Positions 5,807 to 14,054 of a DNA stretch of 26,300 nucleotides are shown here, one piece after another. Positions within the stretch are counted from its first letter, which is position 1; the number at the start of each line of letters is the position of its first letter. Source of the DNA: a virus; IMG/VR virus record IMGVR_UViG_3300005613_000360, positions 1 to 26,300 of that record, one strand, 5' to 3'. The notes below the pieces were generated by a model. That model worked only from the letters and a program-made list of their open reading frames with translations. It was not told the DNA's origin and did no database searches. A program made the translations under genes and the position numbers.

Positions 5807-6055
5807 ATGATGACCACCATGAAGCACCACATCCGTCGTCAAATCAACGCCTTCCCGTATTTCAAGGTCGCCACGCACGACCCGCGCAGCTTTTGCTTCC
5901 GCGACGGCAAGCGGGCGTACGAAACGGAAGAAGCGGCTCACCTCGCGGCCGTCAAGTCCGGCCCGGGTCGGTATCGAATCTCCCGGGTCGACGAGGACGG
6001 CCGGACGGATCTCCAGCCTTTCGACGTCATCGACATCACGACGCCTGTTCGCTGA
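5807..6055 (+). CDS. Small hypothetical protein, opposite to the late operon
   Basis: About 82 aa from the ATG at 5807; further in-frame ATGs occur at 5810 and 5819, so the exact start is uncertain. A small basic-aromatic N-terminal half (FPYFKVATHDPRSFCF) is followed by RDGKRAYETEEAAHLAAV and a short beta-like end RYRISRVDEDG. The composition and the strong third-position C/G pattern look coding on the plus strand, while the antisense frame does not look like a folded protein. It is the only plus-strand gene in the leftmost 14 kb, divergent from TerS and converging on the methyltransferase gene with a 20-base overlap. GGCGGG upstream is a weak ribosome-site candidate. I do not recognise the family. 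It could be a host-interaction protein, perhaps expressed early from its own promoter. Confidence 0.65.
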   Translation: MMTTMKHHIRRQINAFPYFKVATHDPRSFCFRDGKRAYETEEAAHLAAVKSGPGRYRISRVDEDGRTDLQPFDVIDITTPVR

Positions 6056-7556
6056 TTTCGGCAAGGGCGGTCGGCTCGCCGCACGCCTTTGTCGCCTCGG
6101 TCGGGTCGCCCTTCACGAAAACGAGGACGTTTTGGTGGGTCTTGCCCATCTTCCGGCCCGACACGAACTGCTTCGCGGCACGGATCGGCAACGATCCCAG
6201 CGGGGTCACAAGGATCGCCTCGTTGTAGAGGCTCGCACCGGCGTCCTGAAACGCGGCGATAGTTTGCGACACGAAGTTGCGGTAAATCCCTTTCTTGTCG
6301 CGAACGTCCCCCACTACAAACGCGGCGAAGCGATTTGGCCGAAGTCGGGCGACGGCGGCGGCGATGATTTCCCGATAGGCGACGAGGAAATCGTCATCTT
6401 CCATCGCGGATAAATCGTCCGGGTTGTCGGAATAGTTTTCAAGGTCGTAATACGGCGGGCAAGACATCACAAAGTCGGCCGATTCGGTGATCGTCGGGAC
6501 TATTTCCCGCGAGTCCCCGCAGATCCACGTTGGGGCAATCGGCGTTTCTTCAACCGGGCCATCGGGATTGGCGGTGGCGATTCGGTTCCATTGATCGCGA
6601 TTCGCGTCAATCTGCTGGGCCGACAAATCAACGCCGATGTACGCGCGGCCGAGCAGCCCGGTAACCACCCCGCGAACCGATCCGCCCGCAAAAGGGTCAA
6701 GGACGGAGCCTCCCGCCGGCGAAAACCATCGGATGAGCAGTTCGGTGAGAACCGGATCAAAAACGGAGGTGCCGGACCCAGACAAGCCGCCTTCGGGGAT
6801 CACCAGATAGTCGGCCTCAAACTCTGCGTTGGATAGTTTCCGCCCGACGGATTTCTCGGCATCGGTTTTCTGCTGGTAGTAATCGGGAACGCGGCCGGAA
6901 AGGCTTTGTAGCGTCAACGCTTCCCCGCCCTTCTTTTCCTCGTTGTACCCAGCAATTCGCGCGGGCAAATCTGCCCACCCTCCGATCAAATCCTCTCCGC
7001 GTCCGAGTTCGGATCGGATACCGAGCGCAATCCAAGCCCGCTTCCGGTTCTGCCACCATCCCTCGCGGGCGTTGAGTACTGTGAACGGCGGCGCCCCAAA
7101 TCGTTCAGCGAGGGTCGTCGTTTCAGGGCTGTTTTCGTCGTCGGTTGGCACGTCGTCCAAAAGCAAATCGGACAGGTCGTCGTCGTCCCAGCCGATCCGA
7201 AGATCCTCGTCGAGCCCGGCGATTTGGGCGGCAAGGGCTGCTTGGTCCCATTCGGCAAGTTCGGCGGTCCGGTTGTCGGCGATTGCAAAAGCGATGGCTT
7301 CCGGGCCGGTCAAGTCGGTTCGCACGACGTCGATATCGGTCCATCCGAGCCTTTTCGCGGCGGCGTGGGTGCCGTTGCCCGCAACGATAATACCTCGGCC
7401 GTCAACGACGATCGGCTTTTGCTGCCCGAACGCTTGCAAAGAATCGGCGATGGCGTCTAGGTTCTTTTCCGGGTGAAGTCTGACGTTCGCCGGATCGGGT
7501 CGAACCGACTCAACCGAAACGCGCTCAACCACCATCGCCTTTACGGCCTCGCTCAT
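6036..7556 (-). CDS. ParB-like domain fused to DNA methyltransferase
   Basis: 506 aa from the ATG at 7556, which has GGGAGGA five bases upstream; the neighbouring TTG is not needed. Residues ~11-105 form a ParB/Srx-like domain (VRPDPANVR, IIVAGNGTHAAAKRLGW, IADNRTAE), the arrangement common in phage ParB-methylase proteins. An acidic linker (WDDDDLSD) and a middle region of ~100 residues follow. The methyltransferase part has the S-adenosylmethionine motif VLDPFAGGSVRG (285-296) with YIGVDLS, and the catalytic motif SCPPYYDLE (365-373), typical of amino-methyltransferases making N6-adenine or N4-cytosine. No restriction endonuclease lies beside it, so it is probably an orphan enzyme that protects phage DNA or changes its regulation. 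The target sequence and base cannot be deduced. It lies upstream of the packaging genes, after a 107-base gap with a hairpin. Confidence 0.92.
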   Translation of the reverse strand: MSEAVKAMVVERVSVESVRPDPANVRLHPEKNLDAIADSLQAFGQQKPIVVDGRGIIVAGNGTHAAAKRLGWTDIDVVRTDLTGPEAIAFAIADNRTAELAEWDQAALAAQIAGLDEDLRIGWDDDDLSDLLLDDVPTDDENSPETTTLAERFGAPPFTVLNAREGWWQNRKRAWIALGIRSELGRGEDLIGGWADLPARIAGYNEEKKGGEALTLQSLSGRVPDYYQQKTDAEKSVGRKLSNAEFEADYLVIPEGGLSGSGTSVFDPVLTELLIRWFSPAGGSVLDPFAGGSVRGVVTGLLGRAYIGVDLSAQQIDANRDQWNRIATANPDGPVEETPIAPTWICGDSREIVPTITESADFVMSCPPYYDLENYSDNPDDLSAMEDDDFLVAYREIIAAAVARLRPNRFAAFVVGDVRDKKGIYRNFVSQTIAAFQDAGASLYNEAILVTPLGSLPIRAAKQFVSGRKMGKTHQNVLVFVKGDPTEATKACGEPTALAEISEQAS

Positions 7557-7606
7557 CAAAATCCTCCCATATTTCTGATGCCTTAGTCGGGATTACCCGT
7601 TCACCC

Positions 7607-10653: not shown

Positions 10654-11022
10654 TCAAGCGGGCACCATTTCGGCTGACCACTCCCGCTGAATCTGCATCG
10701 GGGTTGGCAGTTTGTTTGCGCGACGGTATTTCTCCCATCGGGCGAAGATTTGGTCCTTCGCGTTGCCGGGAATCTGTTCGGACCAAAGCGTCCGCGTCTC
10801 GTACACGCGGGGCTGGCCGATCCCGGCAACCTCGCTCGCGCACTTTAGGCTCGCCCCGTAAAGCTCGACGATGATTGCGACGGCGATCCATCGACCAAGC
10901 ACGCCGTTTGCGGATCGTCGACCCGGGTCGTTGATATCGCAGTATTGGCAGAATGCCGTCTCGGCGGCGAACTCGATAATGGCTTCGCAAAGATCGTCGG
11001 TAAGATTTCGTGGCTGAGGCAT
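10654..11022 (-). CDS. Possible helix-turn-helix protein, replication region
   Basis: 122 aa from the ATG at 11022, preceded by AAAGGAAATCT. The frame extends upstream only through sequence that belongs to the replication gene. The first half has two helices (LTDDLCEAIIEFAAETAFC) with a C-x-x-C pair (FCQYC). The core LGRWIAVAIIVELYGASLK then CASEVAGIGQPRVYETRTLW has the spacing of a helix-turn-helix, loosely like the DNA-binding end of DnaA. The C-terminus is basic and helical. Position ten bases after the initiator-like gene suggests a replication or regulatory partner. The DnaA comparison is weak and could be coincidence; the gene itself is well supported by its ribosome site and codon pattern. 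Confidence 0.7.
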   Translation of the reverse strand: MPQPRNLTDDLCEAIIEFAAETAFCQYCDINDPGRRSANGVLGRWIAVAIIVELYGASLKCASEVAGIGQPRVYETRTLWSEQIPGNAKDQIFARWEKYRRANKLPTPMQIQREWSAEMVPA

Positions 11023-11032
11023 AGATTTCCTT

Positions 11033-11938
11033 TCAAGGCGAATAATTGGATTTCGGATCGTCCGACGGTAGTGAGTCGGCCGGTTCGCGTCTAGCGCGGG
11101 ATCGCAAGATTGCGCGCCCAAACGGCGTGTCCGGCGTGACGTCGGGCGGAGCGGTTCGTTCCCGGGCGGCGGCGACGATCGCGGCCTTCCGCGCGGCGTC
11201 GGCCGCGTCGAGGTGTTCCTGACGGCGGATATCTCCAATCAGCGAAGGCGCGTCGTAGCATTCGTCGGCAAGCCATCCGTGGAGGGAGTAACGCCGTCGA
11301 TCGGCCGGCGTGATCGCGGCGTAGCGAGCGAGCCGGTCGACGATCCATCGCGCGGCGTCGTCGGGGGTGATCCTTTCTCGTTTCGCCACCCGGGCAATAG
11401 CATTTCGGGCGGCGGATTTAGCCTTTGGGGGGCTCGTCACCATGTCCGGCGGCGCGTCCCCGACGACTAGCTCCGCCCCTCTTAGTTCATAGGAAGGTTC
11501 TTGGTATGTTCCTCTGGCGCCTCGTTCCGGGTTTAGCGTCGTGGATTTCCGGGTTTCGGGCGCAGATTTCCGGGTTTCGGCCTGATCCGACGACGTAATC
11601 CCGGCACCCTGTTCCGGGTTTTCATCCAAATTCCCTGTCGTTTCGTTCCGGGTTTCGGGTATCTGAAGTTCAATCAAGGTCGTCCGGCCGCGTCCTCCAT
11701 CCGACCATCCATCGGGCACGGCGATCAATCCGGCGGCGGCAAGCCGTCGAAGCGACCCGCGAACGAATCGCTCCGATCGGCCCGCCGCGTCCGCGATCGA
11801 GGAAACGGACGGCCATAGTCGTCCGGTCCGGCTGTCGGCCCATTCCAGCAGGGCTAGCGCGACGCCACGATCTCCGCCGGGCAGCCCGCTGGATCGGACC
11901 GCAAGGCACCATCGGACCCATAGGGGTCGATCGCCCAT
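11033..11938 (-). CDS. Phage replication initiator-like winged-helix protein
   Basis: 301 aa from the ATG at 11938, with GGAG five bases upstream. Residues ~28-90 are a winged helix of the type used by phage replication proteins: LEWADSRTGRLWPSVSSIAD, then AAGRSERFVRGSLRRLAAAG and a beta wing. Residues ~92-145 are a polar, probably disordered linker with repeated ETRK and NPE segments, whose DNA holds the five-copy TTCCGGGTTT array. The C-terminal half is helical (AKSAARNAIARVAK, ARWIVDRLARYAAI, DRRRYSLHGWLADECYDAP), as in DnaD/O-type replisome-loading proteins. Iterons inside the initiator gene recall phage lambda O, suggesting that the protein binds its own coding DNA. The ribosome site and first five codons are duplicated upstream. 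No helicase or primase was seen in the window, so host replication factors may be recruited. Confidence 0.72.
   Translation of the reverse strand: MGDRPLWVRWCLAVRSSGLPGGDRGVALALLEWADSRTGRLWPSVSSIADAAGRSERFVRGSLRRLAAAGLIAVPDGWSDGGRGRTTLIELQIPETRNETTGNLDENPEQGAGITSSDQAETRKSAPETRKSTTLNPERGARGTYQEPSYELRGAELVVGDAPPDMVTSPPKAKSAARNAIARVAKRERITPDDAARWIVDRLARYAAITPADRRRYSLHGWLADECYDAPSLIGDIRRQEHLDAADAARKAAIVAAARERTAPPDVTPDTPFGRAILRSRARREPADSLPSDDPKSNYSP
11525..11655. repeat. Five-copy TTCCGGGTTT iteron-like array, candidate origin
   Basis: Exact copies of TTCCGGGTTT lie at 11525, 11547, 11568, 11612 and 11646. Spacings are 22, 21, 44 and 34 bp, the first three about two or four helical turns. Copies two and three share 16 bases. 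Within the initiator gene, copies at 11525 and 11612 encode NPE while the other three encode TRK or TRN in another frame, so the protein did not fix the motif. A relatively AT-rich stretch, 11481-11513, flanks it. This fits a replication origin inside the initiator gene, as in lambda O. Origin function is inferred. Confidence 0.6.
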
Positions 11939-11961
11939 ATCTGCTCCATTGCGAAGGCGAC
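11925..11961. repeat. 37-bp direct repeat, copy 1 (spans initiator start)
   Basis: Identical to 11997-12033, 72 bp away. On the minus strand it contains the GGAG ribosome site, the ATG at 11938 and the first codons of the replication gene. Confidence 0.95.
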
Positions 11962-11966
11962 GAGTG

Positions 11967-11991
11967 AACTATTCGGCAATCCCGAATAGTT
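11967..11991. promoter_or_regulatory. Perfect 10-bp palindrome between the 37-bp repeats
   Basis: Arms AACTATTCGG (11967-11976) and CCGAATAGTT (11982-11991) surround a CAATC loop. The site lies between the two 37-bp direct repeats and overlaps the 3' end of the leader-peptide ORF. It could be a repressor operator or an RNA stem that masks the initiator ribosome site, 24-odd bases downstream. No T run follows, so a terminator is unlikely. Confidence 0.6.
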
Positions 11992-12010
11992 GGTCAGGTC
12001 GATCGCCCAT
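11969..12010 (-). CDS. 13-residue leader peptide ORF upstream of initiator gene
   Basis: From the ATG at 12010 the minus strand reads MGDRPDQLFGIAE and then TAG at 11969. Its ribosome site (GGAG) and first five codons are exact copies of those of the downstream initiator gene (MGDRP...), because both lie in the 37-bp direct repeat. Its last codons run through the 10-bp palindrome. A ribosome reading it could hold that stem open and change initiation at the real start 31 bases further on, a translational-attenuation layout. It may instead be a non-functional by-product of a duplication. Confidence 0.4.
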   Translation of the reverse strand: MGDRPDQLFGIAE

Positions 12011-12033
12011 ATCTGCTCCATTGCGAAGGCGAC
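11997..12033. repeat. 37-bp direct repeat, copy 2 (leader start)
   Basis: Same 37 bases as 11925-11961. It lies in the gap between the RecT-like stop (12054) and the initiator gene, and provides a second ribosome site and ATG. Confidence 0.95.
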
Positions 12034-12053
12034 CCAAGCTATCCGACCGAGTA

Positions 12054-12941
12054 TCAATCCGTCGAGGCTGCGGCCCGCCGGGAATCGACGTCCTCGATCA
12101 TGGCTCCCCAAAGCCCGAGGTCCTCGTCTTTTGCCGCCGCAAAGATTTCCTGACTTCGATCGGGATGGTCCAGATCCTCGGGCGCGTATCCGCCCCGGAC
12201 CATCCATTGCCAAAGCACCTTTTCGGCCGTTTCCGAGGCCGTGCCGTGGCGGATGGCAAAGGCGTCAACCCATCGATCCCATCGTGACTTCTCGGCCGTG
12301 GCCGTGGCCGGATCGGGCGTTGGCGCGGATGTTGTGACCGATAGAGTCGTCGTCGGGGCAATCTCCGAGGCAACGCGATCGGCTTCTTCGGCCCTCGGCC
12401 CCGATGAGGCGACGATATCGGCCACCTCCGTCTCGTCGAGCATTCCGAGCCCGCAGAAGGAAAGGGTCGCGCGACGCTTCGCCTTCGTCACGGCCTTCAT
12501 CCGGGCGTTCGCCAGATCGGCCCCCGACAACGTGATCGTTTCGCGTCGCTTGAAATGGTAGAAGGACGTCGGGACGACGCCGACGTCCGCGTCGGTACGG
12601 CCGGACGGGTCGCGGACGAATACCGTCGCGGCGATTTCCGTATCCGATACGTCGATTCGGACGTCCGTGACCGAGATCGAGTACTTCGCCCGGAGTTGGT
12701 CGGTCGCGGCCTTCGTCGCGTAGAGCGTGAGTTTCGTCCGGCCCCCCTCTGTGGGCAGCGGGATAAACTCAAAAGGTTTCGTCAGCGGATTCAACCCGAG
12801 CGATTCCGTGACTCGGGCGTAGTACTTCATCCGGGCGTCCGGCGAAAGACGACTCAAATCGCCTCCGATGACGACCTCCTGCATGATCGACGCGATTTCT
12901 GATGGGGATGGCGTTCCCGTCGCGGATTGCAACTCGTTCAT
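12054..12941 (-). CDS. RecT/Bet-like single-strand annealing protein
   Basis: 295 aa from the ATG at 12941, with AAAGGAGGA upstream and an ATGA overlap with the XRE gene. Residues ~35-175 show the Bet/RecT-type pattern: YARVTESLGLNPLTKPFEFI, LTLYATKAATDQLR, SISVTDVRIDV, and late in the core LANARMKAVTKAKRRATLSF followed by CGLGMLDETE. Family members anneal complementary single strands with a partner exonuclease. The C-terminal ~100 residues are a Thr/Pro/Ala linker plus a helical tail with WDRWVDAFAIRHG and LWQWMVRGGYAPEDLDHPD, probably a separate small domain. The RecE-like exonuclease lies two genes upstream, which supports a RecE/RecT-like pair. It was assigned by motif memory, so the subgroup is uncertain. 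Confidence 0.82.
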   Translation of the reverse strand: MNELQSATGTPSPSEIASIMQEVVIGGDLSRLSPDARMKYYARVTESLGLNPLTKPFEFIPLPTEGGRTKLTLYATKAATDQLRAKYSISVTDVRIDVSDTEIAATVFVRDPSGRTDADVGVVPTSFYHFKRRETITLSGADLANARMKAVTKAKRRATLSFCGLGMLDETEVADIVASSGPRAEEADRVASEIAPTTTLSVTTSAPTPDPATATAEKSRWDRWVDAFAIRHGTASETAEKVLWQWMVRGGYAPEDLDHPDRSQEIFAAAKDEDLGLWGAMIEDVDSRRAAASTD

Positions 12942-13180
12942 TCGGCGTCCTCCTTTCGGACGTTGGCGACGCGACCGCAGAGATCGTCCATCGAGACATC
13001 GAGGGCGTTTGCGATGGCGTACAGGGTTCGGAGCGTCGGGACGGTCACACCCCGCTCGTAGTTGGAAATCTTCGGTACGCTCGCCCCGGATAGTTGCGCG
13101 AGCCGGGCCTGCGTCATATTTGCTGCGAGACGCGCGGCCGCCATTCTTGTCGCCAAATCGGCGCGAGGAAACTCAGTCAT
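12938..13180 (-). CDS. XRE-family helix-turn-helix regulator
   Basis: 80 aa from the ATG at 13180, with GGAGG six bases upstream; the longer frame begins with TTG at 13204. It is almost entirely a Cro/C1-type HTH domain: LATRMAAARLAANMTQARLAQLSGASVPKISNYERG is the classic MTQ..LA..SG.S...IS..ERG pattern, followed by TVPTLRTLYAIANALDVSMDDLC. No second domain is present, so it is Cro-sized. The gene overlaps the RecE-like gene by 8 bases and the RecT-like gene by ATGA, so it is cotranscribed with them and may act as a feedback regulator of this operon. Its site is not known; the palindrome at 11967 and the operator-like repeats at 16863 and 17357 are candidates to test. Confidence 0.92.
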   Translation of the reverse strand: MTEFPRADLATRMAAARLAANMTQARLAQLSGASVPKISNYERGVTVPTLRTLYAIANALDVSMDDLCGRVANVRKEDAE

Positions 13181-14054
13181 CAGTAGCCTCCAAATCTTCT
13201 TCAAATGCCCAATCGGGAGCCGAGATCAGTTCGACGTTCTCGCTGTATCCCGGCCACCATCCATCCTTTTCGGCAGATTGGATTGCCCGGATCAAATCCA
13301 GTCGTTGCCGCACGCCGAGCAAGAAAGTTGCCCGGTCAAACTCAAAGATGCGGATTCCGTACGGCCGGGTCGATTCCTGTACGAGGAAGATGAATCGGTC
13401 GAGCCGTTCGCCGTTCACTCGCGAGAATCCGTCGCAGTAGTGCGCCGCCCCGATGTGATATCCGAGGGCCAACGCCTGCCGCGTCCATGCCCGGACGTCG
13501 ATCGGCCGCGACGACACCTTGTAGTCCCAGCCAACGACCTGCCCGTCCATCTCGGATACGCCATCAAACCGGGCCTTGCATGCCGCGCCGGTCGTGGGGC
13601 ACGACCAAAGCAAAGATCCTTCGCGGACAATCAGCCGCCCGACAAGTTCGGACGCCATGCCGTGGCCGTTGATCGCGCCTCGCATCCCGGCAAAATCCGC
13701 CCGGCACTGCTCGTCGACGAAAATCGCCGTGGGATGCTTGGCCGTGAAATCCGCGAGTCGCCGTTTGTATTCGGCGGTCGCTTTCACGGCCTTATAGGGG
13801 TTTCCCTTCGCGTCGAAGATGCCGTCCGCGAGCGATTCGGGAATGACCACGTAGTCCGCTTCAAATCGCTCCGGCTCCAGCAGCGCCGCGTGAGCCGCCG
13901 TGCCTTTTGCCATCGCCTCGGTTTCTGGAATCCCGTCCGTCCGCATTGCGCGGTAGTGGGCAAGGCTTCGTCGAGCCGCCGTGATCGACGTCTTGGATAG
14001 TGCGTCGATTTTGAGGTAGTCGCCGAAATCGATGGCGAGAAAATCATTGTCCAT
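13173..14054 (-). CDS. RecE-like PD-(D/E)XK exonuclease (DUF3799 type)
   Basis: 293 aa from the ATG at 14054, with AAAGGAG five bases upstream. Motifs in order: SITAARRSLAHYRA (early helix), AKGTAAHAALLEPERFE (~49-65, the RecE-type entry signature), then the catalytic core CKARFDGVSEM (D164) and VVGWDYKVSS (D177, K179), followed by RQALALGYHIGAAHYCDGF (~192-210), the Q/Y-rich helix common to this family. These proteins digest one strand of double-stranded ends and hand the other to a RecT-type annealase. The RecT-like gene is two genes downstream with only the XRE gene between. The initial ~10 bases overlap the 86-aa gene. Confidence 0.86.
   Translation of the reverse strand: MDNDFLAIDFGDYLKIDALSKTSITAARRSLAHYRAMRTDGIPETEAMAKGTAAHAALLEPERFEADYVVIPESLADGIFDAKGNPYKAVKATAEYKRRLADFTAKHPTAIFVDEQCRADFAGMRGAINGHGMASELVGRLIVREGSLLWSCPTTGAACKARFDGVSEMDGQVVGWDYKVSSRPIDVRAWTRQALALGYHIGAAHYCDGFSRVNGERLDRFIFLVQESTRPYGIRIFEFDRATFLLGVRQRLDLIRAIQSAEKDGWWPGYSENVELISAPDWAFEEDLEATDD

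Follow-up and report, generated by a model that had tools for sequence, protein, structure and literature searches.

The window analysed here is the whole IMG/VR record IMGVR_UViG_3300005613_000360, which is 26,300 bases long. Pfam and PHROG profiles showed that it is a tailed-phage fragment carrying a terminase, a Mu-like portal, an exonuclease VIII-like gene and a Cro/CI-type regulator. An O-like replication initiator gene of 301 aa is located on the minus strand (11033..11938) and was annotated from PF13730 (HTH_36), phrog_270, phrog_391 and an AlphaFold model. The 301-aa protein scored 28.9 bits against HTH_36 (E = 1e-6), above the gathering cut-off of 25, and matched phrog_270 (E = 1.1e-9) and phrog_391 (E = 1.8e-7), families named replication initiation protein or replication initiation O-like. 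These matches agree with an earlier note on this DNA, which had described a winged-helix initiator-like protein. RepC (RP-C, PF03428) stayed under its cut-off (17.4 vs 24.4 bits, E = 0.004), and the Pfam lambda O family was absent among the matches of the protein at E ≤ 0.05. The layout of the initiator is therefore lambda-like, but Pfam does not make it a homologue of lambda O.

The AlphaFold model of the initiator comprises a winged helix, a disordered linker and a helical C-terminal part. The winged-helix DNA-binding domain covers residues 18–72 (11723..11887, minus strand; Pfam and AlphaFold), with blocks of pLDDT >90 across residues 11–70. The recognition helix SERFVRGSLRRL occupies residues 55–66 (11741..11776, minus strand; AlphaFold helix 56–68). 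Within it, Arg60 (codon 11759–11761, minus strand) is proposed as the specificity residue from a column correlation and an R/Q association described below. The linker, residues 92–168 (11435..11665, minus strand; AlphaFold), is mostly predicted to be disordered, with pLDDT <50 over most of residues 110–168, and its DNA carries iterons and AAC repeats. A PDB fold search with the model returned generic winged helices only (E ≥ 0.003), and a search among viral models returned many phage helix-turn-helix proteins, one of them named lambda GpO N-terminal.

The window holds exactly five exact copies of the 10-mer TTCCGGGTTT, which is AAACCCGGAA in the direction of the gene. All of them lie within 11525–11655 on one strand, the coding strand of the initiator gene. 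An exact word search placed copy 1 at 11646..11655 (minus strand, read ETRN), copy 2 at 11612..11621 (minus strand, read ENPE), copy 3 at 11568..11577 (minus strand, read ETRK), copy 4 at 11547..11556 (minus strand, read ETRK), 21 bp past copy 3, and copy 5 at 11525..11534 (minus strand, read LNPE), 22 bp past copy 4 and adjoining an AT-richer element. The five positions (11525, 11547, 11568, 11612 and 11646) given in the earlier note were thus reproduced. Along the window, the spacings are 22, 21, 44 and 34 bp. Steps of 21 and 22 bp correspond to about two helical turns, and 44 bp is 2 × 22; the 34-bp step departs from this and had already been called less exact in the earlier note. The array is located approximately 280–410 nt past the initiator start codon, and no exact copy occurs near the start of the gene.

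A synonymous recoding null was used, in which the protein was fixed and codons were drawn from six window genes. A 10-mer occurring five times in the gene arose in 0/5000 recodings; the maximum was 4 for any word and 3 for the iteron word. The iteron word is therefore conserved as DNA, and the use of two reading frames by the five copies likewise upholds the claim that conservation acts on the DNA. Single-strand folding of the array gave z = −0.35, indicating an array without hairpin structure. No sigma-70 promoters or terminators were found in 11000–13300. The cumulative GC skew, which the earlier note had suggested as a check for the replication start, made no turn at the array and gave no origin signal.

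The AT-rich stretch reported next to the array is real and modest: GC content is 0.45 at 11480–11519 vs 0.63 across the 11–12 kb block. Within it, AAC is repeated at 11510, 11499 and 11487, which had been overlooked. The first AAC (11510) is 24 bp past the start of iteron 5, and the AAC spacing is 11–12 bp. We regard AACATACCAAG / AACCTTCCTATG / AACTAAGA (11480..11510, minus strand) as a candidate unwinding element on the basis of a family consensus (G)AACC. The element of the window is degenerate (AAC ×3, not AACC), and the evidence for an AACC-type element from the window alone is weak.

A search for iteron pairs covered 2.9 million viral contigs plus one genome for each bacterial species. 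Winged-helix genes with the word directly past the domain were found in L003, L004, L008, L010, L011, L016, L024, L114 (Paracoccus marcusii) and L159 (a Rhodobacteraceae MAG). The L008 gene has six iteron copies that together use all three frames, as does gp8 of EBPR podovirus 2, which was reached by protein search alone. A reversed-motif control word gave 15 contigs or loci, and 0/15 had an initiator winged-helix domain. Distant initiators (EBPR podovirus 2, Paracoccus marcusii, the Rhodobacteraceae MAG and several viral contigs) thus keep the identical 10-mer in the same place and in all three frames, as the earlier note had asked of homologues. A whole-protein search for close relatives returned none in viral contigs and two remote phage matches elsewhere.

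In genome contigs, most word-pair hits fell in simple repeats or in genes other than initiators and were set aside. Tandem 8-bp CCGGGTTT arrays of 5–13 copies, unrelated to initiators, were seen in Actinobacteria and Cohnella (L083, L127, L142, L148). Three viral contigs (L005, L007, L015) have one common tandem 9-bp AAACCCGGA array outside initiator genes.

With only the winged helix as query, homologues were also collected from genomes belonging to the Paracoccus genome's family, order and class and to the order of an Azohydromonas genome; the resulting 100-gene set also includes loci first reached through the motif. An array was defined as at least three copies of a 9-mer beyond the synonymous null, with no word named beforehand. 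Arrays were found in 63/100 homologous genes, on the same strand and just past the winged helix, and 60 of these 63 used two or three frames. The other 37 had no array by the 9-mer criterion; some of them are incomplete or distant. Among the 50 genes long enough for controls, the linker held an array in 39, compared with 0/50 in the last 240 nt (C-terminal) and 0/50 in the winged-helix part. In 48/62 genes, the iteron step nearest the AT-rich side measures 22 or 23 bp. The iteron itself varies by clade (AAACCCGGAA, AAACCCCGCA, CCCCCGCA, CCGTGTCC, AAAAGGGGGC and others).

The (G)AACC element is clearer in the family than in the window. Across 62 genes, the 72 nt past the array had an AACC density of 3.2 per 100 nt vs 0.26 and 0.39 elsewhere in the genes. 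At least two AACC were present in 43 of the 62 genes, mostly in mixed frames, and the AACC–AACC spacing was 10–12 bp in 71/86 cases. The first AACC mostly begins 21–24 bp past the start of the last iteron. The block is A-rich, with an AT content of 0.55–0.58 vs a gene mean of 0.39. The AACC count was 144 observed vs 76 under the synonymous null, so the excess is partly protein-borne. In many homologues (e.g., L171, L261, L264 and L265) a GC-rich run such as GCGCGCGCGAG stands directly past the AACC repeats, and this run is possibly a third conserved origin element.

The closest related phage, L185, was reached through the terminase (78% identity), and a tree built without the helix columns placed the window and L185 as sisters (100/96). 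L185 has Gln at the Arg60 position and AAACCCCGAAC in its array, that is, Q with CCCCG vs R with CCCGG in the window. Its AT-rich side carries GAACTACCCAA twice and GAACC, at 12 and 11 bp spacing. In the sister phage, the exact 10-mer was lost, and the clear copies had all switched to one new sequence. The iteron and the recognition helix switched together, which favours co-evolution of protein and site over a loss of function.

The same relationship was seen across the family. Motif distance correlated with recognition-helix distance (Mantel r = 0.42) vs 0.24–0.30 for three other domain segments, and the Arg60 column was the best single column among 36–65 for motif correlation. For CCCNG motifs, Arg occurred with G or T (CCC[G/T]G) in 14/16 and Gln with C (CCCCG) in 10/10 (14:2 vs 0:10, Fisher p = 1.2e-5). 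Both Arg genes that break the strict rule carry CCCCGG, a word in which CCCGG is present as well. The later-added phages MD8 (AVQ), VSN-002 (TIQ) and Mvi-Yong1342-1 (TCQ) all have CCCCG. The iteron word of the window also occurs in a separate clade, likewise with Arg. R/Q switches numbered 7 on the whole tree and 2 on well-supported branches, and a phylogenetic sign test for R/Q did not reach significance with so few supported pairs. With only two well-supported switches, the Arg/Gln helix–iteron code is a strong lead, not proof.

The separate clade includes EBPR podovirus 2 gp8 (JF412295) and Paracoccus/Rhodobacteraceae prophage homologues. It resembles the window in the iteron AAACCCGGAA, its place and its mixed frames, but differs in having full AACC repeats (GAACCRTCA ×3) and the helix TERGAR. 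Because this group is not sister to the window and the sister of the window has another iteron, the common word looks convergent.

Several known systems resemble the locus. In lambda O/ori-lambda, as in the origins of Stx phages (PMC7466680), the origin is inside the initiator gene: the DNA-binding domain is N-terminal, iterons at a spacing of approximately 20–24 bp occupy the central part of the gene and an A-rich tract adjoins on the same side. Lambda O iteron starts are 20, 24 and 23 bp apart, with three exact 9-mer copies in three phases and then the A-rich tract. The comparison with lambda O made in the earlier note is therefore apt: both have in-gene iterons on the same strand, two-turn spacing, a downstream AT-rich tract and an N-terminal winged helix. 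However, lambda iterons are 18 bp long, whereas those of the window are the 10-mers AAACCCGGAA; the window also differs in its HTH_36 DNA-binding domain, its degenerate AAC element (11–12 bp spacing) and the lack of a recognised P-like neighbour.

Pseudomonas phage MD8 has an O-like initiator of the same winged-helix family, gp56. Repeats within its gene were noted and a lambda-like mechanism was inferred (PMC8508860). Six CCCCCGCAG copies and four AACC at 11–12 bp were found in this gene. MD8 differs from the window in its iteron CCCCCGCA, its helix AVQ and a P-like gene next downstream. In repABC plasmids, the oriV is inside the initiator gene repC, in or near an AT-rich region and reportedly without iterons (PMC3155836). 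The in-gene origin is shared, and the RP-C N-terminal domain matches the winged helix weakly and under the cut-off (E = 0.004), but the window has iterons. Iteron plasmid origins such as that of RK2 generally lie outside the initiator gene. RK2 TrfA origins combine iterons with a DUE of short repeats, and ssDNA binding by the Rep was shown (PMC4081077). They are alike in being two-part origins, and their DUE repeats are a precedent for the AACC block; they differ in a Rep with two winged-helix domains and in 13-mers instead of repeats spaced approximately 11 bp.

Taken from these comparisons, the locus is very probably a phage origin of the lambda-ori type embedded in its own initiator gene, with the array as the initiator-binding half. 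The suggestion of a candidate phage origin is thereby strengthened by the DNA-level conservation, the in-gene position, the spacing, the AT-rich repeats and the lambda O layout. From sequence, we infer initiator binding to the iterons and origin activity as follows. Each AAACCCGGAA would be bound by the winged helix of the 301-aa protein, whose Arg60 would make contact with the CCC-G-G part. Several protomers might then build a nucleoprotein complex on iterons about two helical turns apart, and this complex would open the adjoining AT-richer AAC-repeat block (approximately 11480–11510). The initiator itself or some other factor could then keep hold of the opened strand, and recruitment of the host helicase loading machinery would fall to the initiator's C-terminal part. 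Of the neighbouring proteins tested with Pfam and PHROG, none was recognised as a lambda P-like helicase loader, and the small downstream genes lack classification.

Other readings of the array were weighed against this origin. The winged-helix protein could bind an operator array only to regulate transcription of its own or a neighbouring gene, with replication beginning elsewhere. Solved winged helices of similar fold are mostly transcription regulators, and binding for control and binding for initiation are indistinguishable by sequence. Nevertheless, we consider an operator improbable: every exact copy in the window falls within the coding region and none is near the gene start, the array is coupled to the AT-rich repeat block at a distance that varies little from clade to clade, and the homologues are annotated as replication proteins, that of MD8 adjoining a P-like gene. 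It is very unlikely that the array is a partition (parS-like) site or a site for a different phage protein, since the repeat tracks the recognition helix of the very gene that contains it and such arrays sit in initiator genes of phages and prophages that are otherwise dissimilar. This reading draws on the iterated nature that partition sites can have and on a ParB-N-like domain encoded in the window, fused to a DNA methyltransferase at 6036–7559 (Pfam, PHROG).

A repeat at the protein level, with NPE or TRN motifs in the linker and DNA similarity as a by-product, would fit a linker that is repetitive in protein too and the single frame used in a few homologues (L182, L227, L235). Within the family, one DNA word nevertheless gives NPE, TRN/TRK or KPG, frequently in a single gene; these mixed frames, the predicted disorder of the linker and the loss of the array in fixed-protein recodings contradict it, and we give it scarcely any credence. 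Low-complexity stretches elsewhere in the window do contain three- and four-copy 10-mers, which would speak for a chance cluster in a G+C-rich gene. Chance has a negligible probability and is refuted by the comparison, with identical word, place and arrangement in distant homologues, 0/5000 recodings and 0/50 in each control segment.

In-gene repeats in the O-like initiator family are already known from phage MD8 (PMC8508860), and the window adds a member. No report of the helix–iteron correlation or of a family-wide AACC element was found in the literature searched, which covered few subscription papers. We lean slightly towards one common two-part in-gene origin for HTH_36 phage initiators (Alpha- and Betaproteobacteria and other hosts), in which helix-specified clade iterons would be combined with a widespread AACC element of 10–12-bp period for sequence-specific unwinding or strand capture. 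As one stretch of DNA holds both gene and target, local mutation could alter specificity, which would give a readable DNA-recognition code. The likely replication origin of uncultured phages may be locatable from sequence alone, inside the HTH_36 initiator gene, and a helix with its own iterons in one gene offers a natural data set for DNA reading by winged helices. If the code is true, Arg60→Gln would shift the preference from AAACCCGGAA to AAACCCCGAA, and Gln→Arg in L185 would do the reverse. The AACC repeat beside quite different iterons makes DNA opening by phage initiators testable in a defined element.

Further features were observed in the window. A perfect 37-nt direct repeat (11925–11961 / 11997–12033, 72 bp apart) covers the initiator RBS and start codon, and a 25-nt palindrome (11967–11991) lies between its copies. 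A 13-codon leader, MGDRPDQLFGIAE-stop, would begin in the upstream copy. The 37-nt repeat was not seen upstream of the initiator gene in the sister phage L185. The exonuclease VIII-like gene (12054–12941) and a gene for a 295-aa protein without a family match (13173–14054) flank the small Cro/CI-type regulator upstream of the initiator. The 295-aa protein is possibly the annealing partner of the exonuclease VIII-like protein. At approximately 236–300, a short GTC/TTC tandem repeat was found in open frames; read on the minus strand, it gives a protein repeat of the TTTTK/N type.
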